A stretch of 34,712 nucleotides of DNA, taken from Bacteroidales bacterium. GTDB lineage: Bacteria; Bacteroidota; Bacteroidia; Bacteroidales; UBA932. Under the pieces are notes generated by a model, which worked only from the letters and a program-made list of their open reading frames with translations, searched no databases and was not told the origin of the DNA. A program made the translations under genes and the position numbers. This document shows positions 10,082-22,071 of the stretch, in pieces. Position 1 is the stretch's first letter. Every line of letters starts with the position of its first letter. The stretch lies in the NCBI GenBank assembly GCA_015060225.1, contig SUYX01000019.1, positions 1-34,712 of the forward strand, given 5' to 3'.

Positions 10082-10417
10082 GTGCCCGAAGCACCGAAAA
10101 ACACCTCCGCGGGCACAGAAACATACCAAAATGTGCCCGCCTGCTCCCGGGTGGGCACGCCAAGGCACCAAATCGTGCCCGAAGCACCGAAAAACACCTC
10201 CGCGGACACAGAAACATACCGAAATGTGCCCGCCTGCTCCCGGATGGGCACGCTGAGGCTACAAAACGTGCCCGGAGCGCCGAAGAACACCTCCGCGGGC
10301 ACGGAAACACACCGAAATGTGCCCGCCTGCGCCCGAGTGGGCACGCCGGGGCAGCAAATTGTGCCCAGGGCATCGGAAAAGCAACGAGCGGGCACGGAAT
10401 CTCATCAGAATGTGCCC
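10082..10417. repeat. Tandem array of 93-bp units, each holding a 51-bp module
   Basis: Units begin with GTGCCC at 10082, 10175, 10268 and 10361, a period of exactly 93 bp. Each unit is a 51-bp module plus a 42-bp module; the fourth has only a diverged 51-bp module. GTGCCC and GGGCAC recur in opposed orientation within each unit, so the array can fold into several hairpins. Because 93 is a multiple of three and stop codons are missing, long frames stay open on both strands; I do not regard them as genes. The remainder of the 9898-10501 gap holds a TCCCGACA octamer at 9974, another at 10432, and the EF-G2 terminator. Confidence 0.9.
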
Positions 10418-10445
10418 ATAGCACCGGAAGTTGTCGGGACCAAAC

Positions 10446-10474
10446 AAAAAAACGGCACGCCGTAAAGCGTGCCG
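10446..10474 (-). terminator. Intrinsic terminator of the EF-G2 gene
   Basis: The minus strand reads CGGCACGC, a 6-base loop, GCGTGCCG and then seven T. It lies about 30 bases past the stop of the EF-G2 gene. Confidence 0.85.
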
Positions 10475-10501
10475 CGTATGTCCATCGGGAAGAGAGTACC
10501 G

Positions 10502-12655
10502 TTACTCGTCTTTCTCCTCTGCCTCGTATGCTTTCAGAAGTTTCTCCTGAACATCTGAAGGTACCTGCTGGTAATCTGCAAAGTCCATTGTGAAGGTTGC
10601 TCTACCGCTGGTAAGTGAACTTAGTGTTGTTGAGTATTTGTAAAGCTCAGCAAGTGGAACTCTTGCCTTAAGAACCTCAAATCCTTTAACGCTGTTCATA
10701 CCCTCAATCATTGCACGACGGTTCTGAAGGTCACTCATTACATCACCCATATAATCACTTGGCACCAATACCTCTACATTGTAGATAGGCTCCATAATTT
10801 TTGGACCTGCTTTCTTGAACGCCTCTTTAAATGCATTACGTGAAGCAAGTTTGAACGCCATCTCGTTTGAATCTACCGGGTGCATCTTACCATCGTAAAT
10901 GAATACTCTGATATCACGTGCATAAGAACCTGTAAGAGGGCCCTCGTTCATCTTCTCCATAATACCTTTTAGGATTGCAGGCATGAAGCGTGCGTCAATT
11001 GCACCACCAACTATACAGTTGTAATACTCCAATTTGCCACCCCACTCAAGCGGATACTCCTCTTTGCCTTTTACGTTAAGAACCATCTCCTGACCGTCAA
11101 CTTTGAATTTGTTGGTCTCTGGAGCCCCCTCATAGTAAGGCTCAATCAACATATGTACCTCACCAAACTGGCCTGCACCACCTGACTGTTTCTTGTGGCG
11201 GTAGTCTGCAGTTGCAACTTTGGTAATTGTCTCACGGTAAGGGATTCTTGGAGCGAACAGGTCAACCTCAATCTTATGGGTATTTGTAAGCTGCCATTTA
11301 AGGATATTGATATGGTGCTCACCCTGACCGCTGATAATTGTCTGTTTCAACTCTTTTGAATACTCTACCAAAATTGTTGGATCCTCTGCATTGGCTTTGT
11401 TAAGAATCTCGCCCAATTTCTCCTCATCTTTCTCAACTTTAGCCTTGATGGCTGTACGGAACTTAGGTGCAGGGAAGTGTGTAGGCTCAAATACATACTC
11501 GCAACCAGGGGCACAAAGTGTCTGTCCGGTCTTTACTGACTTAAGTTTTACTGTACATGCAATGTCACCGGCCATCACCTCAGAAACTTTCTCACGTTTC
11601 TTGCCTGCCACTGCATAAATCTGTGCAATTCTCTCTTTTGCACCGGTCTCAGGATTTACAACATCCATACCCTCAGTAAGCTTACCGCTCATTACCTTAA
11701 AGTATGAAACATCTCCCAAGTGCTGCTCCTGGGCAGTTTTGTATACGAAAATTGAAGTAGGGCCGTTTGAATCAACCTTTACAGTTTTACCATCCACAAG
11801 TGCGTTCTCAACTTTGTCTGGAGTAACACCTGCATTGATTGTAAACTCCATGATACGTTTTACACCAATGTCTTTCTTTGCAGACAAACAGAATACAGGA
11901 AGGATGTCACCCATCTGCATACCAATCTTCATACCTGCCCTGATCTCATCCTCAGTAAGCACACCCTTGTCAAAGAATGTCTCCATCAATGTCTCGTCAT
12001 TCTCAGCTGCCATCTCAACAAGCTGCTGCTGCAATGCCAAAGCCTCCTCTTTATACTCCTCAGGAATCTCAAATGACTCACGGGTACCGTTCTCATCCTT
12101 GAATTTGTACATTTTCATTTTCAGAACATCAATAAAAGTGTCAAAGTCAGGACCTGGGTTAACTGGGTACTGTACAAGAACCACTTTGTTTCCAAATGTA
12201 GCCTTCAAAGAGTCTATTGTTGCCTGCCAATCCTGTTTCTCGTTGTCAAGCTGGTTTACAGCAATGATAAGAGGTTTCTGATGTTTTACAGCGTGACGTG
12301 CAAAAATCTCTGTACCAACCTCAACACCCTGAGTTGCGTTTACAAGGAGGATACCGTTCTCAGCAACTGAGAAAGCTGAATATACACCGCCCACGAAGTC
12401 GTCCGAGCCCGGAGTATCAATGATATTGAATTTTGTATCAAGGAACTCAGTATATAGAAGTGTAGAATAAATTGACCTCTGGTAAATCTGCTCAATCTCG
12501 GTGTTGTCACTCATTGTGTTCTTCCCCTCAACTGTACCTCTTCTCTCAATTACCTTTCCCTCAAACATCATTGTCTCAGCGAATGTGGTTTTTCCCGATT
12601 TGGAACTACCCAACAACACCACATTACGCACATTACTGGTATTATAAGTTTTCAT
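10502..12655 (-). CDS. fusA2: Elongation factor G paralogue (EF-G2 type) without catalytic histidine
   Basis: The 717-residue protein has the EF-G layout: G domain with P-loop GSSKSGKTT (16-24), DTPGSDDF (80-87) and NQLD (134-137), then domains II-V, including KKQSGGAGQFGEVH and the LTGSYARDIRVFIYDGK segment. In canonical EF-G the switch II motif is DTPGHVDF, and its His positions the water for GTP hydrolysis; here it is Ser84. The overall sequence resembles the Bacteroides thetaiotaomicron EF-G2, reported to support translocation without GTP hydrolysis. The inferred role is a ribosomal translocase for starvation or slow growth. It has its own promoter and terminator and is divergent from an HTH regulator. 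Confidence 0.88.
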   Translation of the reverse strand: MKTYNTSNVRNVVLLGSSKSGKTTFAETMMFEGKVIERRGTVEGKNTMSDNTEIEQIYQRSIYSTLLYTEFLDTKFNIIDTPGSDDFVGGVYSAFSVAENGILLVNATQGVEVGTEIFARHAVKHQKPLIIAVNQLDNEKQDWQATIDSLKATFGNKVVLVQYPVNPGPDFDTFIDVLKMKMYKFKDENGTRESFEIPEEYKEEALALQQQLVEMAAENDETLMETFFDKGVLTEDEIRAGMKIGMQMGDILPVFCLSAKKDIGVKRIMEFTINAGVTPDKVENALVDGKTVKVDSNGPTSIFVYKTAQEQHLGDVSYFKVMSGKLTEGMDVVNPETGAKERIAQIYAVAGKKREKVSEVMAGDIACTVKLKSVKTGQTLCAPGCEYVFEPTHFPAPKFRTAIKAKVEKDEEKLGEILNKANAEDPTILVEYSKELKQTIISGQGEHHINILKWQLTNTHKIEVDLFAPRIPYRETITKVATADYRHKKQSGGAGQFGEVHMLIEPYYEGAPETNKFKVDGQEMVLNVKGKEEYPLEWGGKLEYYNCIVGGAIDARFMPAILKGIMEKMNEGPLTGSYARDIRVFIYDGKMHPVDSNEMAFKLASRNAFKEAFKKAGPKIMEPIYNVEVLVPSDYMGDVMSDLQNRRAMIEGMNSVKGFEVLKARVPLAELYKYSTTLSSLTSGRATFTMDFADYQQVPSDVQEKLLKAYEAEEKDE

Positions 12656-12721
12656 ATTAGTTAAAAATGTATTTAAAGTGTTTTTATTTAATTACTTATC
12701 TACTTTATGAAAAAGCGGTTT

Positions 12722-12752
12722 CAAATTTAAAAAAATTTTTTCTAAGATGCAA
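12722..12752 (-). promoter_or_regulatory. Bacteroidota promoter of the EF-G2 gene
   Basis: On the minus strand, TTG (12750-12752), a 20-base AT-rich spacer and TAAATTTG (12722-12729) fit the promoter model well. It leaves a leader of roughly 60 bases before the ATG at 12655. Confidence 0.7.
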
Positions 12753-12763
12753 CGCATTATAAC

Positions 12764-12788
12764 AAATACCACCTTTCAGGTGTTATTT
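12764..12788. promoter_or_regulatory. Near-perfect palindrome between EF-G2 and the HTH regulator
   Basis: Two 11-base arms, AAATACCACCT and AGGTGTTATTT, pair at 10 of 11 positions around a 3-base centre. The site lies just upstream of the EF-G2 -33 element and 53 bases before the HTH regulator ATG. Its size and place suit an operator for a dimeric regulator, possibly the adjacent HTH protein. That link is inference. Confidence 0.45.
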
Positions 12789-12828
12789 TACAACCTATAA
12801 GATGTTTATCCCATACCCTTTTGGGTCA

Positions 12829-12836
12829 TATTTTTG
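12829..12836 (+). promoter_or_regulatory. Candidate promoter of the HTH regulator
   Basis: TATTTTTG matches TAnnTTTG but ends only 5 bases before the ATG at 12842. If used, the transcript would have little or no leader. Confidence 0.35.
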
Positions 12837-12841
12837 TTGTA

Positions 12842-13210
12842 ATGAAAAAGAACGGCTCAATAAAACAAAAAATATATGAGATCCGGCGCAGCAAAGGGAT
12901 TTCCCAGGAGAAAATGGCCAGTCTCATTGGTGTGGCCCTCAACTCATACAGGAAGCTTGAACGTGGGAAAACCTCTCTTGTAAATGAAAAGCTGTGGGAC
13001 ATCGCCGATGCCCTTGGTGTGTCTGTCAAAGAGCTTGTACTTAAAGAAGATATCAATACAGGATCATCTCTTGCAGATATGGAAAGGGAAAAATTCCTGG
13101 CAAAAATCACCAGCCTTGAGGAAGAAATAGCAACCCTCAAACAGTGTGTTACCCTACTTAACGAAAAAAACGAGAGCTATATAAAAAACAGGGGATCCTC
13201 CTACCAGTAA
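12842..13210 (+). CDS. Cro/C1-type HTH regulator with C-terminal coiled coil
   Basis: The ATG at 12842 gives 122 residues. Residues about 8-63 form a classic HTH_3 ([21 protein letters not shown]...[11 protein letters not shown]). Residues about 80-112 ([31 protein letters not shown], in part) have heptad spacing and should dimerise as a coiled coil. It resembles small Xre-type regulators of Bacteroidota. It is divergent from EF-G2 with a palindrome between them, so self-regulation or control of EF-G2 is possible. rnhB follows after 28 bases. Confidence 0.85.
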
Positions 13211-13224
13211 CAGCAAAAAAACAT

Positions 13225-13232
13225 TACTTTTG
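13225..13232 (+). promoter_or_regulatory. Candidate promoter of rnhB
   Basis: TACTTTTG matches TAnnTTTG and ends 6 bases before the rnhB ATG at 13239, which would give an almost leaderless mRNA. No TTG lies at the usual upstream distance, so read-through from the HTH gene is the alternative. Confidence 0.4.
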
Positions 13233-13238
13233 CAGTAC

Positions 13239-13844
13239 ATGGAAAATAGAAGACTGTTACCATATCTTAATCCCGACGGATTTGAAGCAGGGTGTGACGA
13301 GGCAGGACGGGGCTGCCTTGCCGGGCCGGTGTACGCTGCAGCTGTTATCCTTCCAAAAGACTTTTACCACCCATTGCTTAACGATTCCAAGCAACTTACC
13401 GCCAAACAGAGGAAACAGCTCCGACCCATCATTGAGAATGAAGCTCTTGCATGGGGAGTATGCGCCGTACAACCGGAAGAGATAGACCGTATAAACATTC
13501 TGAAAGCCTCAATAAAGGGGATGCACGGTGCCCTTGACAAACTTCATATACGTCCTGCCCATATCCTGGTGGACGGCAACAGGTTCTACAAATATGGGGA
13601 TATCCCTCACACCTGCGTGGTAAAGGGAGATGCCACCTACGCAAGCATAGCCGCCGCATCTGTACTTGCCAAAACCTACAGGGATGAATATATGCTTGAG
13701 ATTGCTGCAGAATACCCCCAATACGGCTGGGACCGCAACATGGCTTACCCTACAAAAGAGCATAGGGCCGCCATTGAAAAATATGGCGTTACCCCATATC
13801 ACAGACTGAGCTATAAACTGTTGGAAGATCCTACATTGTTTTAG
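13239..13844 (+). CDS. rnhB: Ribonuclease HII
   Basis: This enzyme cleaves the RNA strand of RNA-DNA hybrids and removes single ribonucleotides from DNA. The ATG at 13239 is preferred to a TTG nine bases upstream and gives 201 residues, the usual length. The four acidic catalytic residues are visible: Asp20 and Glu21 in GCDEAGRG, Asp112 in ILVDG, and Asp131 in [23 protein letters not shown] is also a family hallmark. The stop overlaps the stop of the convergent glycerate kinase gene. Confidence 0.95.
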
Positions 13845-15136
13845 AGGGCAAGTTGCTCAAGCAAAGCTGCCGCATCCCGCATACATACTTCCAGAGGATA
13901 CCCCAACGATGCTATTGAACGTACCTCCACTTTGGTTTGCATTTGCCCGGAAAGGGCATTCATCTCCAGCTGCGAAAGCTTGTTCACTCCACAAAATATC
14001 ATGACAGGCCTCCTGTACTCCTGCGCAAGTGTAATAACTCCGCTTACCACTTTACCACTAAGACTCTGAGAATCAAGGCTCCCCTCTCCAGTAACTACAA
14101 GATCAGCCCACTTTACACTCTCCTCCAGAGATGTGATGCGGGCAAAAAACCTCCACCCCGGTACAAGTGACGCACCCAAAAAGGCAACTCCGGCATACCC
14201 TACACCGCCTGCAGCTCCCGCACCCGGCTGTTCCTTGCATGATTGCCCAATCCCCAAACATTTTTCAGCTGCAGCTGTAAACCATCTCTTCCCCTCCTCC
14301 AATTCTAAAAGGGCATCAGAATCCGCCCCCTTCTGAGGTGCATAAACCGCAGTGGCACCATTTGGTCCAAGAAGAGGATTAACCACATCACAAATCACCT
14401 CCACATTCCCCCACCTCTTTATTTCCGGCCCCTTTATCCCGACAATTCTTTTCAAGTCCCCGCCACAAACCGGTACCGGCAACAAATCTCCTGCAGCATC
14501 AGTAAAAAGATATCCCAAGGCCTGGAGCATCCCCGCACCACAATCATCGGTAGCACTGCCACCAATAGAGAGAGTGATGGAAACAGCACCTCTGCCTGCA
14601 GCATCGAGAATCACCTCCCCCAAACCATATGTGGAGGTTCTCAGCGGATTGCGCAACCATGAATCCAATTGTGCCAGACCGCACACCCTTGCCATCTCAA
14701 TGAAAGCCGACACATTCCCGTCCTGTTCATACATCAGGTATTCCACAGGGCGCCTCACCCCTACCGCATCAGCCGCCTCACACTGCACCCTTCTCCCATT
14801 TGCCACACTCTTCCCGATAACCTCAAGGCTCCCGTCTCCACCATCGGCAATCTCCACCATCCGGAACTGCACACATCCGTTCCCCAAACCGCCACAATCG
14901 GCCGCAGGGGAACAAATATCCCCCAGAATGTTCCCCGAACCGCCACAATCGGCCGCAGGGGAACAAATATCCACCATTTTGTGCCCATCTGCACCACCTT
15001 GGGCACTCCCGGCACCCGAAAAGTGCCTCTCCAACCCGCGCCGGATGGCCTCTGCTGCCTGTGAAGAGGTCAAACTCCCCTTGAATTTGTCGGGAGCAAT
15101 TAGGATTTTCTTTATGTTTTGGTTTTGAGTTGCCAT
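13841..15136 (-). CDS. glxK: Glycerate kinase carrying an in-frame repeat insertion
   Basis: This is a glycerate kinase of the GarK/GlxK family (PF02595), which phosphorylates D-glycerate. Signs are [20 protein letters not shown] near the start, [54 protein letters not shown] and [17 protein letters not shown]. At 431 residues it is about 45-50 longer than the family's usual 375-385. The excess lies between the first helix (RRGLERHF) and IADGGDG and contains the segment [11 protein letters not shown] twice. This corresponds to the 51-bp repeat at 14885-14986. The insertion sits where family members have a short surface link, so the enzyme may remain active. Confidence 0.9.
14885..14986 (-). 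repeat. Two 51-bp repeat modules inside glycerate kinase
   Basis: On the minus strand two consecutive 51-bp units (14986-14936 and 14935-14885) share a 33-base identical stretch. The first starts GGGCACAAAATGG and continues to TTTGTTCCCC. The unit length and starting sequence match the intergenic array at 21942-22071. It is carried in frame as 17-codon units. Confidence 0.85.
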
Positions 15137-15149
15137 TTTCTTACTTTTG
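15119..15149 (+). promoter_or_regulatory. Bacteroidota promoter of the S46 peptidase gene
   Basis: TTG (15119-15121), a 20-base spacer and TACTTTTG (15142-15149) fit the model. The ATG at 15187 follows after about 37 bases. The -33 element lies inside the start of the divergent glycerate kinase gene. Confidence 0.7.
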
Positions 15150-15186
15150 TGGGGTTAAGGAATAAAGTTTAAATATAGATATTTTT

Positions 15187-17283
15187 ATGAAAAAATTAGG
15201 ATTTTTATTGGTTGCTGCCATTCTTTTGGGCTCAGCCCCTTTGAAGGCAGATGAGGGTATGTGGTTGCTCCCTTTGCTGGAGAAACTCAACATCAAGAAA
15301 ATGCAGGAGATGGGATGCAAACTCTCTGCAGAAGATATTTACAGTATCAACAATTCCAGCCTTAAGGATGCAATTGTACATTTTGGAGGTGGATGTACCG
15401 CCGAGATTGTTTCAGACAAAGGTCTCCTGTTTACAAACCACCACTGCGGTTACGGCAGCATTCAGGCTTTGAGCACAGTTGAGCACGATTATCTTAAAGA
15501 CGGCTACTGGGCAATGAACCTGAAGGAGGAGCTTCCTGCCAAAGGTTTGAGCGTAACTTTTGTAGACAAATTTGTGGATGTTACAGAGCGCCTGAACAAG
15601 GCCGTTGCCAAAGCAAAGAATGAGGCAGACTACAAGAAACGTTGGGACAAGGAAATTGCAAAAATCAAAGAGGAGGCTGTGAAGGCAGACCCTACTTTGG
15701 ATGCAAGGGTTACAAGCTTCTACAATGACAACATGTACCTTCTTATCACCACCCGTACTTTCAAGGATATCCGTTTTGTAGGTGCACCTCCTTCATCAAT
15801 CGGCAAATTCGGTGCCGATACAGACAACTGGATGTGGCCAAGACATACAGGTGACTTCTCTGTTTTCAGAATCTATGCAGACAAAAACAATAACCCTGCA
15901 GAGTACTCTGAGGAGAATGTCCCTTACACCCCAAAACAATCTCTGAAAGTTTCCCTGAAAGGTGTTAAGGAGAATGATTTTGCAATGATCATTGGCTTCC
16001 CTGGCCGCACTACCCGCTTCATGAGCAGCGAGGAGGCATTGGAGACCCAGAAGATCAACAATGCAATCAGCATCTATGTACGTGGCGAGAAACAGGATAT
16101 CTGGATGAACGACATGCTTGCAGACCCTAAAGTGAGAATCCAGTATTCAAGCAAATATGCAGGTTCTTCAAACGGCTGGAAGAAATGGATGGGTATGAAC
16201 GAGACCTTTGACAAGTTGAACATTGTTGAGCGCAGGGCCGCTGAGGAGAAAGCATTCAACGAGTGGGTTGCTGCAGATCCAAAACGTGTTGAGAAATACG
16301 GCACTGCTGTTGAGACAATCAACAACACCATTAAGGAGAGAGCTGAGTACGCATACGTTTACAGATATTTGAGCGAGACCCTTTCTGCAATTGAGCTTAT
16401 CAGGGCTCCACAGAGGGCACAGCGCGGTGGAACAAGACAGGCGTTCTACAAGGATTACTCTGCTTCTACAGACCGCAAACTTGCAAAAAGGATGATTGCA
16501 ATTTACAAGGAGAAGGTTGACCCTAAATACCATCCTGCATTCTTTGCAACCATTGACAGCCAGTTTGGAGGAAACATTGATGCTTTTGTAGATAATTTGT
16601 TTGACACCTCCGTTTATACCAGCCAGGAGAAATATGATGCTGCAGCAAAAGAGGCTGCCACTGCAGGCAAGAATCTCTCTGACGATCCTGTAGAGGCTCT
16701 AAGGGCAGACTTGCACATGGTTTCAGGGAAGGTGATGCCTAAGCTGCTTCAAAGTTCAGCTGTAATAAACAAGGCCAAAAAGGCATATGTTGCAGGTACC
16801 CTTGAGATGATGGGCGACAATGCTTCATACCCTGATGCAAACTCAACCATGCGTCTCACTTACAGTAAGGTACTTCCTTATTCTCCAAAAGATGCTGTTA
16901 TCTATGACTATGTAACCACCTTGGACGGCGTAATGGAGAAAGAGGATCCAAACAACTGGGAATTTGTAGTTCCTGAAAAACTTAAGGAGTTGTGGAAAGC
17001 CAAGGACTTTGGCGAGTATGCTCTTGAAGACGGAAGAATGCCTGTATGCTTCCTCTGCAACGGTGATATCACCGGCGGAAACTCAGGTTCCCCTGTATTG
17101 AACGATAAAGGTGAACTCCTTGGACTTGCATTTGACGGCAACTGGGAGGCAATGAGCGGCGACGTCATCTTTGAGCCAAGCCTACAGCGCTGTATCAACG
17201 TGGATATCCGCTATGTACTGTTCATCATAGACAAATTCGGCGGAGCAGGCTATCTGTTGGATGAGATGAATATTGTAAGATAA
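15187..17283 (+). CDS. S46 family dipeptidyl peptidase, DPP7-like
   Basis: This 698-residue serine peptidase has a signal peptide (1-21) and should act in the periplasm, cutting dipeptides from oligopeptide N-termini. The chymotrypsin-fold residues are visible: His86 in TNHHCGYG and the nucleophile Ser635 in GNSGSPV. Full length and the end (CINVDIRYVLFIIDKFGG) are typical of S46. Gly651 in LAFDGNWEAMSGD sits where DPP11 has Arg (which selects Asp/Glu) and DPP7 has Gly, so a preference for hydrophobic P1 residues is inferred. It has a strong promoter and is followed by a repeat array. Confidence 0.93.
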   Translation: MKKLGFLLVAAILLGSAPLKADEGMWLLPLLEKLNIKKMQEMGCKLSAEDIYSINNSSLKDAIVHFGGGCTAEIVSDKGLLFTNHHCGYGSIQALSTVEHDYLKDGYWAMNLKEELPAKGLSVTFVDKFVDVTERLNKAVAKAKNEADYKKRWDKEIAKIKEEAVKADPTLDARVTSFYNDNMYLLITTRTFKDIRFVGAPPSSIGKFGADTDNWMWPRHTGDFSVFRIYADKNNNPAEYSEENVPYTPKQSLKVSLKGVKENDFAMIIGFPGRTTRFMSSEEALETQKINNAISIYVRGEKQDIWMNDMLADPKVRIQYSSKYAGSSNGWKKWMGMNETFDKLNIVERRAAEEKAFNEWVAADPKRVEKYGTAVETINNTIKERAEYAYVYRYLSETLSAIELIRAPQRAQRGGTRQAFYKDYSASTDRKLAKRMIAIYKEKVDPKYHPAFFATIDSQFGGNIDAFVDNLFDTSVYTSQEKYDAAAKEAATAGKNLSDDPVEALRADLHMVSGKVMPKLLQSSAVINKAKKAYVAGTLEMMGDNASYPDANSTMRLTYSKVLPYSPKDAVIYDYVTTLDGVMEKEDPNNWEFVVPEKLKELWKAKDFGEYALEDGRMPVCFLCNGDITGGNSGSPVLNDKGELLGLAFDGNWEAMSGDVIFEPSLQRCINVDIRYVLFIIDKFGGAGYLLDEMNIVR

Positions 17284-17314
17284 TTATTTTCTTCCCGACA
17301 AATCCCCGGATGCC

Positions 17315-17465
17315 TGCGGTTCAATTGGGATGGGATCCTTCCCGGAAACCCAACCTGTTGAAATGGAATCCCCCGGAAGCAGTGCGGTACAATTGGATTG
17401 GAATCCCTCCCGGAAACCCAACCTGCTGAAATGGAATCCCTGGAAACACTGCGGTACAATTGGAT
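17315..17465. repeat. Tandem array of 67-68-bp units between the S46 gene and mrp
   Basis: TGCGGT-led units start at 17315, 17383 and 17450 (periods 68 and 67); the third is partial. The shared core includes CCCGGAAACCCAACCTG and TGAAATGGAATCCC. The array is bracketed by TCCCGACA octamers at 17293 and 17473 in opposite orientation. Confidence 0.85.
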
Positions 17466-17495
17466 GTGATACTGTCGGGAACAGACAATTTGGAA

Positions 17496-18662
17496 ATGAC
17501 AACTTCAGAAATTCTTGATGTGCTGGGTGGTGTTATCCACCCGGCTTTTGACAAAAGCATAACAGAACTCGGCCTTGTAGAGGATGTAAAGGTTGAACCC
17601 CTCAAGGATGCTGTAGGAAATGAGATTCCCGACAGCTGCAAGGTGAAGTTCAAACTGGTATTCAAATCTCCCGATGCCCTTGCCGGTGCGTTGAAGAAGG
17701 CTTGTGAGGAAGCCATCTGCTCAGCATGGCCTGGGACAAAAGTGAGCATCATTGAGATGGTACGCGAGGGTGCCGCCCCAAAGAAAGCCAAGAAACTTGA
17801 ACTTGGACAGGAGCAGCTTGAGACTGTCGGGAAGATAATTGCAATTGCCTCAGGAAAAGGCGGTGTGGGCAAATCTACAGTTTCTGTAAACCTTGCAATT
17901 ACCCTCGCCAAAATGGGATACAAGGTTGGATTGGCAGATGCTGATGTCTATGGACCTTCAATCCCTAAAATGACCGGCACAGAGGGTGCTGTTCCCGATG
18001 TGGAATTCATATACGAAGACGGGTACTCAGACCACGGCGAGGCTGCCATTGCAGACCAGGACGCATCGGGGAACCCTATGGGGAAAAACCCTCATGGAAA
18101 GACAATTGGAGAACTGATAATACCTGTAGAGAAATTTGGTGTAAAATGGATGTCAATCGGATACTTTGCACGCCCTGAACAGGCCCTTATCTGGAGGGGT
18201 GCAATGGCCTGCAACGCCCTTAAACAGATGACCCTGCAGGTGAAATGGGGGGAGCTTGACTTCCTGTTGCTGGATCTTCCTCCTGGTACAGGTGATATCC
18301 ATATAAGCATGGTACATGACATTCCATTGAACGGAGCCATAATTGTTACCACTCCTCAGGCTGTAGCTTTGGCCGATGTGGAGAAGGGAATAAACATGTT
18401 CCGCAACAAGGACATCAACAAACCAATCTTTGGACTGGTTGAGAATATGGCCTGGTTTACCCCAACAGAACTGCCGGAAAACAAATACTACATCTTTGGA
18501 AAGGACGGCGGAAAACAGATGGCTGAAAAATATGATGTTCCGCTTTTGGGCCAGATTCCTCTGGTTCAGGGCATACGCGAATGCGGAGACGAAGGCATCC
18601 CTGCCGCAGTGAGCGCCGGTCCGGTATTTGATGCATTTGTAGAAATTGCAAAAGTGCTGTAG
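17496..18662 (+). CDS. mrp: Mrp/NBP35-type P-loop Fe-S cluster carrier
   Basis: The ATG at 17496 gives 388 residues; the 12 codons upstream begin at a TTG inside the repeat and are rejected. Residues about 1-90 form a MIP18/DUF59 domain ([18 protein letters not shown]). A ParA-like ATPase follows with P-loop GKGGVGKST (120-128), [12 protein letters not shown] and [13 protein letters not shown]. Mrp/ApbC proteins bind and transfer Fe-S clusters. The CxxC that usually follows ENM is absent here: the stretch reads [21 protein letters not shown] recall this as common in Bacteroidota Mrp proteins. A hydrophilic segment (about 182-208) appears longer than in most relatives. Confidence 0.92.
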
Positions 18663-18664
18663 AC

Positions 18665-18698
18665 CAGTCACCGGAACCGGTGCAGACGGTGGTGACTG
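18665..18698 (+). other. Hairpin directly after mrp
   Basis: CAGTCACC (18665-18672) and GGTGACTG (18691-18698) form a perfect 8-bp inverted repeat starting 2 bases after the mrp stop, with a small inner ACCGG/CCGGT. There is no T-run, so it may protect the 3' end or be part of the local repeats rather than a classical terminator. Confidence 0.35.
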
Positions 18699-18747
18699 AA
18701 GGTGACCACTGGAGACGAGCGACTGAAGGTAACCACTGGAGGCGAGT
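18694..18747. repeat. Two 27-bp direct repeats
   Basis: Two adjacent units starting GACTGAAGGT (18694 and 18721) differ at only a few positions. They share GGTAACC-like sequence with the array that follows. Confidence 0.7.
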
Positions 18748-18810
18748 GGTGAACGGTGGTGGCTCACATGCGGTATCCTACCAGTTTCGCTAATTTGCTC
18801 AGTGTCCACT

Positions 18811-18970
18811 GGCAGCATCCAGCGGTATCTGGCAGCATCCGGCGGTAACCGGCAGCATCCAGCGGTAACCGGCAGCATCCGGCGGTATCTGGCAGCATCC
18901 GGCGGTAACCGGCAGCATCCAGCGGTATCTGGCAGCATCCATCGGTAACCGGCAGCATCCGGCGGTAACC
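18811..18970. repeat. Eight 20-bp tandem repeats
   Basis: Eight consecutive copies of GGCAGCATCCRGCGGTAWCY, all exactly 20 bp with no spacer. Variation is restricted mainly to positions 11 and 18-20 of the unit. No cas genes or spacers, so not a CRISPR array. Confidence 0.95.
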
Positions 18971-18988
18971 GGAACTGCAATAATAAAG

Positions 18989-19124
18989 AGCGCCAAGCCG
19001 ATACGAACATGCATCTAAGCGTGGAGTGTCTGCTTGGCGCTTTTATGTTCTCATCGGGATACTTCAGCTACCCGATGCGAACAACACAATACACTCTGGA
19101 TCACTTTTTTGTTCTCATCGGCTT
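18989..19124. repeat. REP-like palindrome cluster, RAYT downstream side
   Basis: Nested inverted repeats: AGCGCCAAGC (18989-18998) with GCTTGGCGCT (19032-19041), perfect over 10 bp, and TGTTCTCATCGGG (19046-19058) with CCCGATGCGAACA (19071-19083), 12 of 13. An outer pair, CAAGCCGATACGAACA and TGTTCTCATCGGCTTG (ending 19124), encloses them. Confidence 0.7.
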
Positions 19125-19183
19125 GAATTACAATTTCCCCAGCAAAAATACCACCTGTCATAATGCACTACCAGTAGCCACCC

Positions 19184-19384
19184 GCACCCCTGCCACCACT
19201 CGATGGCATTTCCACCATGCACTGGATTTACACCGCCTTCTGATAGCATTTCCGTCAATCATCCGGCACCCCTGCCACCACTCGATGACATTCCTACCAT
19301 GCACTGGATTTACACCGCCTTCTGATAGCATTTCCGTCAATCACCCGGCACCCCTGCCACCACTCGATGACATTTCCACCATGG
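19184..19384. repeat. Tandem array of 82-bp units
   Basis: Units starting GCACCCCTGCCACCACTCGA lie at 19184, 19266 and 19348, a period of exactly 82; the third is cut off after about 37 bases. It lies between the REP-like cluster and the 3' end of the RAYT gene. Confidence 0.9.
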
Positions 19385-19429
19385 CAATGCACCTCCACTT
19401 CGGTTACCGGATTTTACAGAGCTGCCGGC

Positions 19430-20464
19430 TCAAACATACCCTTTCAGCACTTCAACATTTAAATAAAGCATTCTTGAAATCTGTTTTACGGTAGCGGCAT
19501 ACTCATACCTGAGCTTGCGGGCAATTGCAAGTCTGGCGTTGATGCCAAGGGAATCCAGATCGCCGGTACCATACATTTCAAACGCAATACGGGTGACAAT
19601 GGGCCGGAGGAATTTGTCGGGAATAAAAGTGCTGTGGCCGCTGCTGAGAAGTTCATCAACCTTTCCCTCCAGTTTTTTGGACAGGTAGTAGAGGTATCTG
19701 TTTGGCGTCTTGAAAAGTTCCTCAACCTCATGCAGTTGCAGGAAATTCCAGGGCAGAATCATCCCATTTTCATCTATCACCCAATCTGACGGCAACTCTG
19801 CCCGGCTCCCCAAACATTGCCAACGTTCCCTAACGGTGAGATCTCCAAGTTTCCGGTATTGCAAATGTCGCCCTACATGCTGCAGATGCGGTTGCATCTC
19901 CACAACCTTATGCCCATTGCAGCGGGTCGGCAAAGGCTCAACCTTGCCGGACAGTTCCTCACGGTGCAGATGCGGTTGCACAGTAGCAGATGATACTCTG
20001 ATATTGCCGTTGCCCGGGAATGGCTGTCCATCCTCCCTGAAAAGATATCGGGAAGAACCCCAAAGATACTCTGTAGGGAGAGCTCCAAAACCCGCCGCTA
20101 TGGGGTTGCGGTCTATATAACATATTGCCTCCATGAGGCTTTCCTGCGAGAGGATTGGTATTATTTTGGAATCCAAACCTTTAAGATATCCTTTGGTACC
20201 ATATTTTGTAGAGATGTATTTTCCCGACAAGTTTTTGTATTTGTTCACGAAATCTTTGCATGCAGGTTGTGTGCCGCAACACACAAAGTGCACATGATTG
20301 TCCATTAAGACAAATGAATAAAGTTGTACCCCAGTGAGGTATGAACAAATTGCTGCACGGTTTACCCCCCGAACAAAATCCTCGGTATCCTTGAACATCC
20401 AAGGCAATTGGTTACCGTCTGTACATACATGAAAAAATCTGCAGCTGCTGAAACTATCCACCAT
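19430..20464 (-). CDS. REP-associated tyrosine transposase (RAYT), Y1 HUH family
   Basis: The ATG at 20464 gives 344 residues; a GTG nine codons upstream is possible. FHVCTDGNQLPWMFKDTEDF and the HUH motif HVH (57-59, in LMDNHVHF) mark the Y1_Tnp domain. Candidate catalytic tyrosines are Tyr75 and Tyr82 (NKYKNLSGKY). CYIDRNPIAAGFGALPTEYLWGSS is the usual RAYT signature. A C-terminal helical/HTH region (LAIARKLRYEYAATVKQISRML) should bind DNA. A Gln/His-rich middle segment (about 160-205) carries QPHL twice, from a 16-base direct repeat 84 bp apart (19881-19896, 19965-19980). RAYTs are single-copy genes thought to mobilise REP palindromes. Confidence 0.85.
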   Translation of the reverse strand: MVDSFSSCRFFHVCTDGNQLPWMFKDTEDFVRGVNRAAICSYLTGVQLYSFVLMDNHVHFVCCGTQPACKDFVNKYKNLSGKYISTKYGTKGYLKGLDSKIIPILSQESLMEAICYIDRNPIAAGFGALPTEYLWGSSRYLFREDGQPFPGNGNIRVSSATVQPHLHREELSGKVEPLPTRCNGHKVVEMQPHLQHVGRHLQYRKLGDLTVRERWQCLGSRAELPSDWVIDENGMILPWNFLQLHEVEELFKTPNRYLYYLSKKLEGKVDELLSSGHSTFIPDKFLRPIVTRIAFEMYGTGDLDSLGINARLAIARKLRYEYAATVKQISRMLYLNVEVLKGYV

Positions 20465-20543
20465 AATCCCATGAAATATAGGGCCACACACTCCTTTCTC
20501 CCAATCCCACCCAGGCCCGTTTGGCGGATAAATTGAAGTATTG

Positions 20544-20574
20544 CAAAGTTTGGAATTATTTTTGGCGATTGCAA
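20544..20574 (-). promoter_or_regulatory. Candidate promoter of the RAYT gene
   Basis: On the minus strand, TTTG, a 20-base spacer and AAACTTTG fit the model except for one base (A for T in the first position of the -7 box). Confidence 0.4.
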
Positions 20575-20630
20575 ATGTTTTTTGTGCTTTTATTTAGGTA
20601 TCAATTTGTTAGAGTAGTTGATGAGCCATG

Positions 20631-20753
20631 CCGATGCGAACATGAATTGGCTCCACAATGCAATGCAGTGTTCGCATCGTACTGCTAAGAAATACCGGTG
20701 AGAACATCAACCACGCAGAAACATGCATCTGGGACACATCGCTGTTCTCATTG
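20631..20753. repeat. REP-like palindrome cluster, RAYT upstream side
   Basis: CGATGCGAACA (20632-20642) and TGTTCGCATCG (20669-20679) form a perfect 11-bp inverted repeat with a 26-base loop. A second pair, TGAGAACA (20699-20706) and TGTTCTCA (20743-20750), follows. The cores match the cluster on the other side of the RAYT gene. Confidence 0.7.
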
Positions 20754-20795
20754 ACTTGGGCAATAGGAGACCGTAAAGAAACAGAGGTCACCAGG

Positions 20796-20973
20796 CCGCA
20801 GGGATGCCAGAATCACCCGACCGCGGAGACGCCAGGATTACCAAGGCCGCAGGGACACCAGAATCACCAGACCGCGGAGACGCCAGAATCACCAAGGCCG
20901 CAGGGACGCCAGAATCACCAGGCCGCAAGGGCACCAGAATCACCAAGGCCGCAGGGATGCCAGGACCACCTGG
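20796..20973. repeat. Tandem array of alternating 25/26-bp units (51-bp dimer)
   Basis: Seven CCGC-led units start at 20796, 20821, 20847, 20872, 20898, 20923 and 20949. They alternate between a GGCCGCAGGGA type and a CCGCGGAGACG type, so the true period is 51 bp. The array lies just beyond the 3' end of rsmA. The open frames across it are not regarded as genes. Confidence 0.9.
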
Positions 20974-21061
20974 GCTAAGGGTAGGCCGGTGCCAAAGGAA
21001 TACCGGCGCCGACGGGGTTACTGCGGGCGACAAAGGCAAAACCGACTGGGCAAAGGCAGGA

Positions 21062-21880
21062 TCAGGCTGTGACCAGCTGGACCAGTTCCACAAACTGCTC
21101 CACTGAAAGCTGCTCTGGACGGAGTTCCATGAGAGCGGCAAGAGGCTCCGGGGTATTGTCTGGAGTAAAGTTGCGGCCCAACTCTGCGAGGATTGGTTTA
21201 ATTGAGTTGCGGATGGTTTTGCGGCGCTGGTTGAAACAGGTTTTCACTACTTTCTTAAAGAGCGCTTCATCGCATCCCAATGAGGTGCGGCTGTTGCGTA
21301 CCAGGCGGATTACACCGCTTTTTACTTTTGGAGGGGGTACAAATACATGCTCAGGAACTGTAAAGAGGTACTCTATGTTGTACCATGCCTGGAGCAATAC
21401 GGAGAGTATCCCGTAGGATTTGTTCCCCGGGCCGCTGGCAAGGCGTTCTGCCACCTCTTTCTGGAGCATGCAAACCACCTGGGGAATGGTCTCCTTATAA
21501 TCCAGCACTTTAAAGAAAATCTGGGAAGAGATGTTGTACGGGAAGTTTCCTATTACGGCAAATTCTCCGGAAAATATCTTCTCAAGCGGAACCTGCAGGA
21601 AATCCCTCTGCTGAAGGGAATAAAGCATCTGCGGGTAAGTTTTCTGAAGATACTCAATGGATTCTGTATCAATCTCACACACCTCCAACTTTATCTGAGG
21701 ATTCTGCAGCATATACTTGGTAAGGACACCTGTACCGGGGCCTATCTCCAGTACCTGCAGCTGCCTGCCATCTTCTGCCGGAAGTATAAGTCCTCCAACT
21801 ATCCTTTGTGCTATTGATTCATCTGCAAGAAAGTGCTGTCCCAACCCTTTCTTGGCTTTTACTCCATATTGTGTTGCCAT
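21062..21880 (-). CDS. rsmA: 16S rRNA (adenine1518-N6/adenine1519-N6)-dimethyltransferase
   Basis: RsmA (KsgA) dimethylates two adenosines in helix 45 of 16S rRNA during 30S assembly. The 272-residue length is standard. The N-terminus KKGLGQHFLADESIAQRIV, the SAM loop EIGPGTGVLT (45-54) and the catalytic NFPYN motif are all present. The C-terminal part has the usual FNQRRKTIRNSI helix. Its ATG lies 6 bases after a TAnnTTTG box. It is divergent from aspS across the 51-bp repeat array. Confidence 0.95.
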   Translation of the reverse strand: MATQYGVKAKKGLGQHFLADESIAQRIVGGLILPAEDGRQLQVLEIGPGTGVLTKYMLQNPQIKLEVCEIDTESIEYLQKTYPQMLYSLQQRDFLQVPLEKIFSGEFAVIGNFPYNISSQIFFKVLDYKETIPQVVCMLQKEVAERLASGPGNKSYGILSVLLQAWYNIEYLFTVPEHVFVPPPKVKSGVIRLVRNSRTSLGCDEALFKKVVKTCFNQRRKTIRNSIKPILAELGRNFTPDNTPEPLAALMELRPEQLSVEQFVELVQLVTA

Positions 21881-21886
21881 AATTCA

Positions 21887-21894
21887 CAAAGGTA
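21887..21894 (-). promoter_or_regulatory. Candidate promoter of rsmA
   Basis: The minus strand reads TACCTTTG, ending 6 bases before the ATG at 21880, suggesting a leaderless or near-leaderless transcript. No -33 TTG at the expected distance. Confidence 0.45.
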
Positions 21895-21941
21895 ATAAAA
21901 ATTGTTGCACCTGTGCCGCGGAGAAGAGAAAGTTCCCTCCG

Positions 21942-22071
21942 GGGCACATTTCGGTGCATTTTTGTTCCCACGGAGGGAATTTGCTGCCTTCCGGGCACAA
22001 AATGGCGGGGTTTTGTTCCCGCGGAGAGAATTTGCTGCCACTCGGGCACATTTCATGGGGAATTTGTTCCC
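21942..22071. repeat. 51-bp repeat array between rsmA and aspS
   Basis: GGGCACA-led units start at 21942, 21993 and 22044 (period 51); the third stops after 28 bases, and a decayed unit precedes the first. Unit 1 matches the 51-bp module of the 10-kb array (its reverse complement) at about 35 of 51 positions without gaps. Unit 2 matches the glycerate kinase module at 24 of the first 28. The remaining part of the 21881-22182 gap holds the two divergent promoters. Confidence 0.88.

Follow-up and report, generated by a model that had tools for sequence, protein, structure and literature searches.

Fixed-spacing dyad arrays in gut Bacteroidales: a probable REP/BIME-like repeat family associated with RAYT genes

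Three short repeat arrays lie in a 34,712-nucleotide stretch of Bacteroidales DNA (the window), which is contig C40 of G000, a 2.15-Mb metagenome-assembled genome that is 86% complete. The unit common to all three is a 28-bp dyad, GGGMAC-N16-GTKCCC, consisting of two inverted 6-bp half-sites. The three loci probably belong to a repeat family of gut Bacteroidales that resembles repetitive extragenic palindromes (REPs) and bacterial interspersed mosaic elements (BIMEs), and the window arrays would answer to a lineage of domesticated, REP-associated tyrosine transposases (RAYTs) that goes with GGGMAC and has its member on contig C28 of the same genome; the probability of this reading is roughly 0.75. 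BIME-like arrays of REPtrons are of a known kind. What is new is the fixed spacing of the half-sites, together with a half-site that is specific to the RAYT.

The repeat unit

The first locus is intergenic, downstream of an EF-G-like gene, the second lies in a glycerate kinase gene and the third between rsmA and aspS (Table 1). In the best ungapped alignment, the first and third agree at 37 of 51 positions on opposite strands (40 dinucleotide shuffles: mean 26.8, maximum 29), and the second and third at 24 of 28, also on opposite strands (shuffles: mean 16.9, maximum 19). The initial annotation had proposed a 51-bp module shared by the three loci, with about 35 of 51 and 24 of 28 matches for these two pairs, and both values are upheld, lying above the shuffle maximum. 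The first and second loci, on the other hand, have only 20 matches over 28 bp, equal to the shuffle maximum of 20, so that this pair is tied by geometry and not by letters.

The 51-bp period arises from dyads separated by a 23-bp linker, and a 42-bp period from a linker of 14 bp. The distinct 42-bp module that had been thought to alternate in the first array is thus real as a period, but it is the same dyad with a shorter linker and not a second module. When the genome of origin was searched with GGGMACN{10,26}GTKCCC, N was 16 in 48 of the 50 matches listed (52 were counted), and the reversed-pattern control gave 8. A pattern scan of one genome per species yielded at least 114 further stretches, which were selected for dyads, so that array sizes in them are biased. 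The gap histogram has the value 16 a total of 48 times in the own-genome loci and 328 times in the 114 stretches listed; in the latter, no other value exceeds 5 occurrences apart from 58 (37 times), the distance between the outermost half-sites of two dyads joined by a 14-bp linker. The 16-bp spacing is non-random. Linkers of 23 bp (35 times) and 14 bp (6 times) were found in the own-genome loci, and linkers of 23 (154), 14 (46), 24 (12), 22 (6) and 15 bp (4) in the 114 stretches. As the spacing within the dyad is rigid and linker length varies a little, the dyad is taken as the functional unit. The letters between the half-sites are variable; A/T-rich blocks adjoin the arms and occupy the middle of the 23-bp linker.

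The canonical REP foot, GT[AG]G, was sought in the linkers, with dyad interiors outside the search, and was not enriched there. In 146 distinct 23-bp linkers GTAG occurred 6 times (shuffle mean 19.5) and GTGG 24 times (29.7), and in 24 linkers of 14 bp GTAG occurred 5 times (shuffle mean 2.2, maximum 8). One sister half-site, GTGGAC, includes GTGG. Three stretches from other phyla, which are likely chance matches (L117, L130, L149), were excluded from the linker-motif and array-placement counts, and these three with L182, L189 and L197 from the reading-frame count; all six were kept in the gap histogram, the half-site pairing and the RAYT-flank counts.

RAYT genes among the arrays

With the window's own RAYT as the query, relatives were found in 29 of the 39 genomes of the genus, giving 42 loci with flanks. 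The own-genome RAYT on C28 sits between two arrays, with 9 GGGMAC dyads upstream and 5 downstream, and GGGMAC dyads lie near four more RAYTs: G008:C57 (5 + 2), G006:C107 (2 upstream), G018:C13 (1) and G061:C5 (1). Among these five, only the RAYTs of G000:C28 and G008:C57 have them on both sides. The G018 and G061 RAYTs belong to a different clade, in which a period of 52 bp is usual (6 of 8 rows). The 114 dyad-selected stretches contain eight RAYT open reading frames (ORFs), all with dyads within 1.5 kb and seven with dyads on both sides; one of the eight matches the G008 RAYT exactly, and L099 and L115 lack the expected motifs and have very long branches.

The HuH histidines and the catalytic tyrosine of Y1/HuH transposases are present in all nine aligned RAYTs, with NHxH in eight (THLH in L204) and Y[VIT]NRN in nine. 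The best fold match is 4er8, titled as a REP-associated tyrosine transposase bound to a REP hairpin and presumably an E. coli-type RAYT. Sequence profiles match less well: Pfam Y1_Tnp gave weak matches, to 5 of the 9 at E up to 1, NCBIfam recognised one of nine members as an IS200/IS605 transposase (E 3.1e-4), and when the RAYT profile was searched against PDB sequences the best transposase rows reached only E 0.87-0.92.

The RAYT gene in the window is probably not the partner of the dyads, contrary to the earlier suggestion that it might mobilise them. A count of inverted 6-mers in its 1-kb flanks found no recurrent dyad, the nearest GGGMAC dyad is that of the third locus, 1,450 bp away, and on the first of two RAYT trees the gene belongs to a different RAYT clade. 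It is also absent from the syntenic place in genome G024.

Half-sites that change with the RAYT

Related RAYTs are flanked by dyads of the same 16-bp spacing and other half-sites: TGTCAC, GGTGCA, GTCCAC, TGTGCA and ATCCAY. Recurrent inverted 6-mers (at least four, in 1-kb flanks) were found in nine rows of a 12-row RAYT clade, with a 16-bp inner gap and seven half-sites in all; GGGAAC and GGGCAC adjoin different RAYTs. L280 and L285, and likewise L281 and L288, form closely related pairs from G000 and G024. Half-sites vary from RAYT to RAYT, even inside one genome. Most rows have a period of 51 bp, and the GTCCAC pair one of 52/104 bp. Outside the clade, only L305 and L315 reach four recurrent inverted 6-mers, at other gaps; the flanks of L312 and L314 were masked in this count. 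When half-sites are tabulated against loci, only the diagonal is filled, and 16 other spacings give no matches; the half-sites were drawn from the same loci, so that only the zeros of the table carry weight.

Genome-wide searches for TGTCAC and GGTGCA provide an independent test. All 6 matches to TGTCAC dyads in G000 and all 12 in G024 had N16; 2 and 4 of these, respectively, lie far from the RAYT. For GGTGCA in G015, N16 was found in 28 of 31 among the matches listed, at 8 places, with 0 in the control. Repeat abundance accompanies the RAYT in these cases, TGTCAC in G000 and G024 and GGTGCA in G015. Taken together, the RAYTs and their differently tagged dyads of the same shape look like a natural set of matching transposase-tag pairs.

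Other geometries were seen in passing. GGTGCA dyads in G007 have a 13-bp spacer in 5 of 7 among the matches listed, another fixed geometry in the same genus. G022 and G015 have N16 dyads of the type found at L311 (G022:C60), TGTCACGACT...CGTGACA. One of them is about 1 kb away from a RAYT of distant relationship, and they possibly represent the same geometry in another RAYT group. At L315 (G007:C32), a RAYT is accompanied by an array of 52-bp units with a 10-bp perfect stem and a 9-nt loop; the hairpin of GGGMAC dyads is much weaker than this.

Several observations weigh against assigning the window arrays, and dyads generally, to matching RAYTs. None of the six RAYTs examined in G024 has a GGGMAC dyad within 1.5 kb, despite 116 matches to the GGGMAC pattern in that genome (control 13); GGGMAC abundance and its RAYT go together in G000 and G008, but not in G024, whose assembly is 87% complete. 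TGTCAC-N16 occurs where no matching RAYT is known in G022 (3 of 3) and G015 (3 of 4), in repeats of different make-up, and GGTGCA-N16 does so in G024 (2 of 5) and G008 (2 of 3), among the matches listed. Three of the 12 rows (L282, L294, L296) have 51-bp arrays without a recurrent perfect dyad, and the dyad count of L280 is no better than its mirror-repeat control, the only row where that control reaches four. On the first tree the five RAYTs with nearby GGGMAC dyads are unclustered (5 changes; shuffled mean 4.8). GGGMAC-labelled RAYTs need 3 changes on the second tree, against 9.2 for shuffled labels, but this clustering depends on dyad-selected rows and on a label that omits L293, L297 and L309, although a GGGMAC dyad is near each. 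The 12-row clade, with 96/94 support on the first tree, is not intact on the second. (L304, a 25-aa fragment, is outside both trees, and L283, L289, L311, L314 and L318 are also outside the second.) The probability given at the outset takes this limited tree support into account.

Distribution and placement

A two-dyad pattern was found in 11 of the 39 genomes of the genus, with 0 for the control in all 39; some of the 11, such as G018, carry 17-bp spacers. The 114 stretches comprise 108 Bacteroidales or Bacteroidia records, many with titles that name ruminant rumen, omasum, cecum or colon, and 6 records from other phyla, which may be chance. The expectation of a dispersed family therefore proved correct, with further copies in the genome of origin, in its congeners and in other Bacteroidales; its description as neither insertion sequence-like nor CRISPR-like was fair as far as it went, the resemblance being to REPs and BIMEs instead. 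The two-dyad pattern gave 0 stretches in viral_contigs; it starts with GGGCAC, so pure GGGAAC arrays would escape it.

Placement was called by a longest-ORF heuristic. Eleven of the 16 arrays in the genome of origin are intergenic (5 convergent, 5 tandem, 1 divergent), four are in ORFs and one lies over an ORF end, in stretches called 87% coding; elsewhere, 73 of 126 arrays are intergenic, 42 in ORFs and 11 at ORF ends. The array-bearing genes of the genome of origin include the glycerate kinase gene, one helix-hairpin-helix domain gene and one MGMT-type DNA-binding domain gene. The last two carry their arrays in frame and outside the matched domains (L212 3060-3138 and L214 2159-2288, respectively). 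A further array, at the start of the dnaG ORF, is probably upstream of the true start.

Table 1. Coordinates of the dyad arrays and associated genes in the window
Feature	Position	Strand	Description
Dyad array 1	10082..10417		Six exact dyads, starting at 10111, 10153, 10246, 10297, 10339 and 10390; linkers of 23 and 14 bp
Glycerate kinase gene	13841..15136	-	Carries array 2 in frame; PF02595, E 1.5e-97
Dyad array 2	14879..15006		In glycerate kinase gene; two exact dyads (14908, 14959); linkers 23, 23, 14
RAYT-like gene	19430..20491	-	Motifs NHVH and YIDRNP; no Pfam family at 1e-3
Dyad array 3	21942..22071		Three exact dyads (21942, 21993, 22044), linkers 23; between divergent rsmA and aspS (Pfam)

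By eye, a decayed half-site can be made out in the first array at 10204, and others leftward to about 10031. A strong hairpin beside an A run (a T run on the minus strand) follows the EF-G-like gene at 10453-10474, with the array beyond it; by eye, it reads as the terminator of that gene. In the kinase, the second array comes after the N-terminal DKFKG stretch and before ADGGDGS. No known RNA family reached the gathering threshold in the window.

Contig C31 of G024 shows synteny with the window between about 22.05 and 10.03 kb, with 80-88% identity. All three array sites are retained there, but the numbers of dyads differ (5, 5 and 10), and the two outer arrays reach the contig ends; several G024 contigs begin or finish inside dyad arrays. 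Among the 17 of 30 glycerate kinase loci that were compared, exact dyads are present in G000 (2) and G024 (5), related decayed units in G006 and perhaps G022, and none in the others. Because G024 keeps the sites with different dyad numbers, and from the kinase comparison, the array places appear to be old and their copy number labile.

The same alignment revealed other differences. The window segment 19126-21060, with the RAYT and two tandem arrays (82-bp and 25/51-bp units), has 43 bp in place of 1,935 in G024, reflecting either insertion in the genome of origin or loss in G024. A 68-bp tandem array (17301-17470; 2.6 copies) before an Mrp-like gene is absent from G024, the BLAST-block junction being exact to the base, and at 18694-18972 two more tandem arrays (27-bp and 20/60-bp units) fill about 300 bp, where G024 has only about 115 bp.

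How might the dyads be read and spread?

By analogy with REPtrons, a RAYT would recognise both half-sites of its own dyad, and would cleave and join them, probably as single-stranded DNA. Copies may thereby have been seeded at dispersed sites, mostly intergenic and sometimes in tolerant stretches of protein, and array length would then be altered by tandem copying or recombination.

Are the dyads read as hairpins? In favor of this, two dyads with matched halves fold by pairing of their arms (-4.4 and -6.0 kcal/mol), and like halves, seen in 276 of 371 dyads, exceed the 243 expected by our own arithmetic if halves were independent, which copies of one another are not. Against it, the halves are unlike in the remaining 95, making full pairing impossible, and in the single such dyad that was folded the arms did not pair. 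A wider proposal can be put forward tentatively, at well under even odds: RAYT lineages of one Bacteroidales genus may keep the repeat architecture near-fixed, with a 28-bp dyad, a 16-bp spacer and a period of 51 or 52 bp, and exchange only the 6-bp half-site, giving several orthogonal transposase-address pairs per cell. On this proposal, the rigid spacing and the unlike halves would further suggest that a RAYT dimer may read the dyad as duplex DNA, whereas Y1 transposases are known to recognise hairpins.

Rigid spacing and unlike halves would also suit duplex binding sites of a host protein, such as a nucleoid protein, gyrase or a regulator, in which case binding selection would keep the spacing and the RAYTs would merely lie among the arrays. 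The A/T blocks beside the arms and in mid-linker, which by our own reading are roughly in helical phase, fit this as well. A single host protein, however, would not be expected to have half-sites that differ from one RAYT to the next, even within one genome, and this explanation is unlikely. Less likely still is that these are ordinary minisatellites, 51-bp arrays grown by slippage with a chance dyad in the unit: other tandem repeats are abundant in the genome and array copy number varies between species, but the same spacing recurs with seven unrelated half-sites and at distant single loci, and between loci the half-sites persist while unit sequences diverge.

That the arrays are retained as a translated 17-residue peptide repeat is scarcely credible, for although 51 and 42 are divisible by three, some arrays are in frame in genes and, by eye, one frame puts the variable half-site letters on third positions, translation of the kinase gene runs through the unit in a different frame, most own-genome arrays are intergenic, related dyad families have 52-bp units, and frame-keeping lengths are equally common outside ORFs (149 of 159 units divisible by three, against 46 of 47 inside ORFs of at least 900 nt). 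The idea that the family spreads while preserving the reading frame fails on the last two counts: frame preservation is a by-product, the 51-bp length following from the architecture and merely making in-gene copies tolerable. Frame-keeping REP insertions have already been published for RAYT subclass 2.4 (PMC6006769).

Comparison with known systems

On the reading as a RAYT-associated family, the natural pairs described here differ in one 6-bp word at constant spacing, and the residues responsible for recognition could be mapped by comparing sequences and swapping domains; according to PMC8266576, RAYT-repeat recognition in vitro is known for a few GTAG-type pairs only. The family would also explain one type of tandem repeat in gut Bacteroidales that have not been cultured. 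No GGGMAC dyad or half-site code was found among the titles and abstracts listed in searches of open-licence papers, which is weak evidence of absence.

The comparisons that follow draw on parts of the cited texts. The closest likeness is to the REPtrons and BIMEs with TnpAREP (RAYT) of the E. coli and Stenotrophomonas type (PMC2817692, PMC8266576), in which a RAYT of the same fold is flanked by short tandem inverted repeats with linkers, and copies are dispersed and mostly extragenic; repeat and RAYT occur together there, as they do here in some genomes but, for GGGMAC, not in G024. The GGGMAC family differs in having no GT[AG]G foot that was seen, arms of 6-7 bp and a fixed 16-bp spacer, and in that related RAYTs have entirely different half-sites at an unchanged spacing. 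TnpAY1 subclass 2.6, or RAYT group 5 (PMC6006769), is also from Bacteroidetes, and its genes are flanked by "atypical secondary structures" that lack the GT[AG]G foot and have copies elsewhere. Its motifs are NH[LIV]H and YIH[QN]NP, the latter set against Y[VIT]NRN here in a comparison of published motifs only, and the parts of that text on the subclass give no dyad geometry or half-site code. The REPINs of Pseudomonas fluorescens (PMC3116915) are similarly RAYT-linked, their mobile unit is probably a pair of inverted repeats, and excision products are reported for them, but their ends are conserved on a 16-bp scale in units of 71 or 110 bp, as opposed to 6-bp half-sites in a 28-bp unit. BrickBuilt, a miniature inverted-repeat transposable element (MITE) of Porphyromonas gingivalis (PMC4596501), is likewise a dispersed, intergenic element of tandem units in the Bacteroidales; its unit, however, is 23 nt without spacers, it has a leader and tail with inverted ends, and its abstract names no RAYT.

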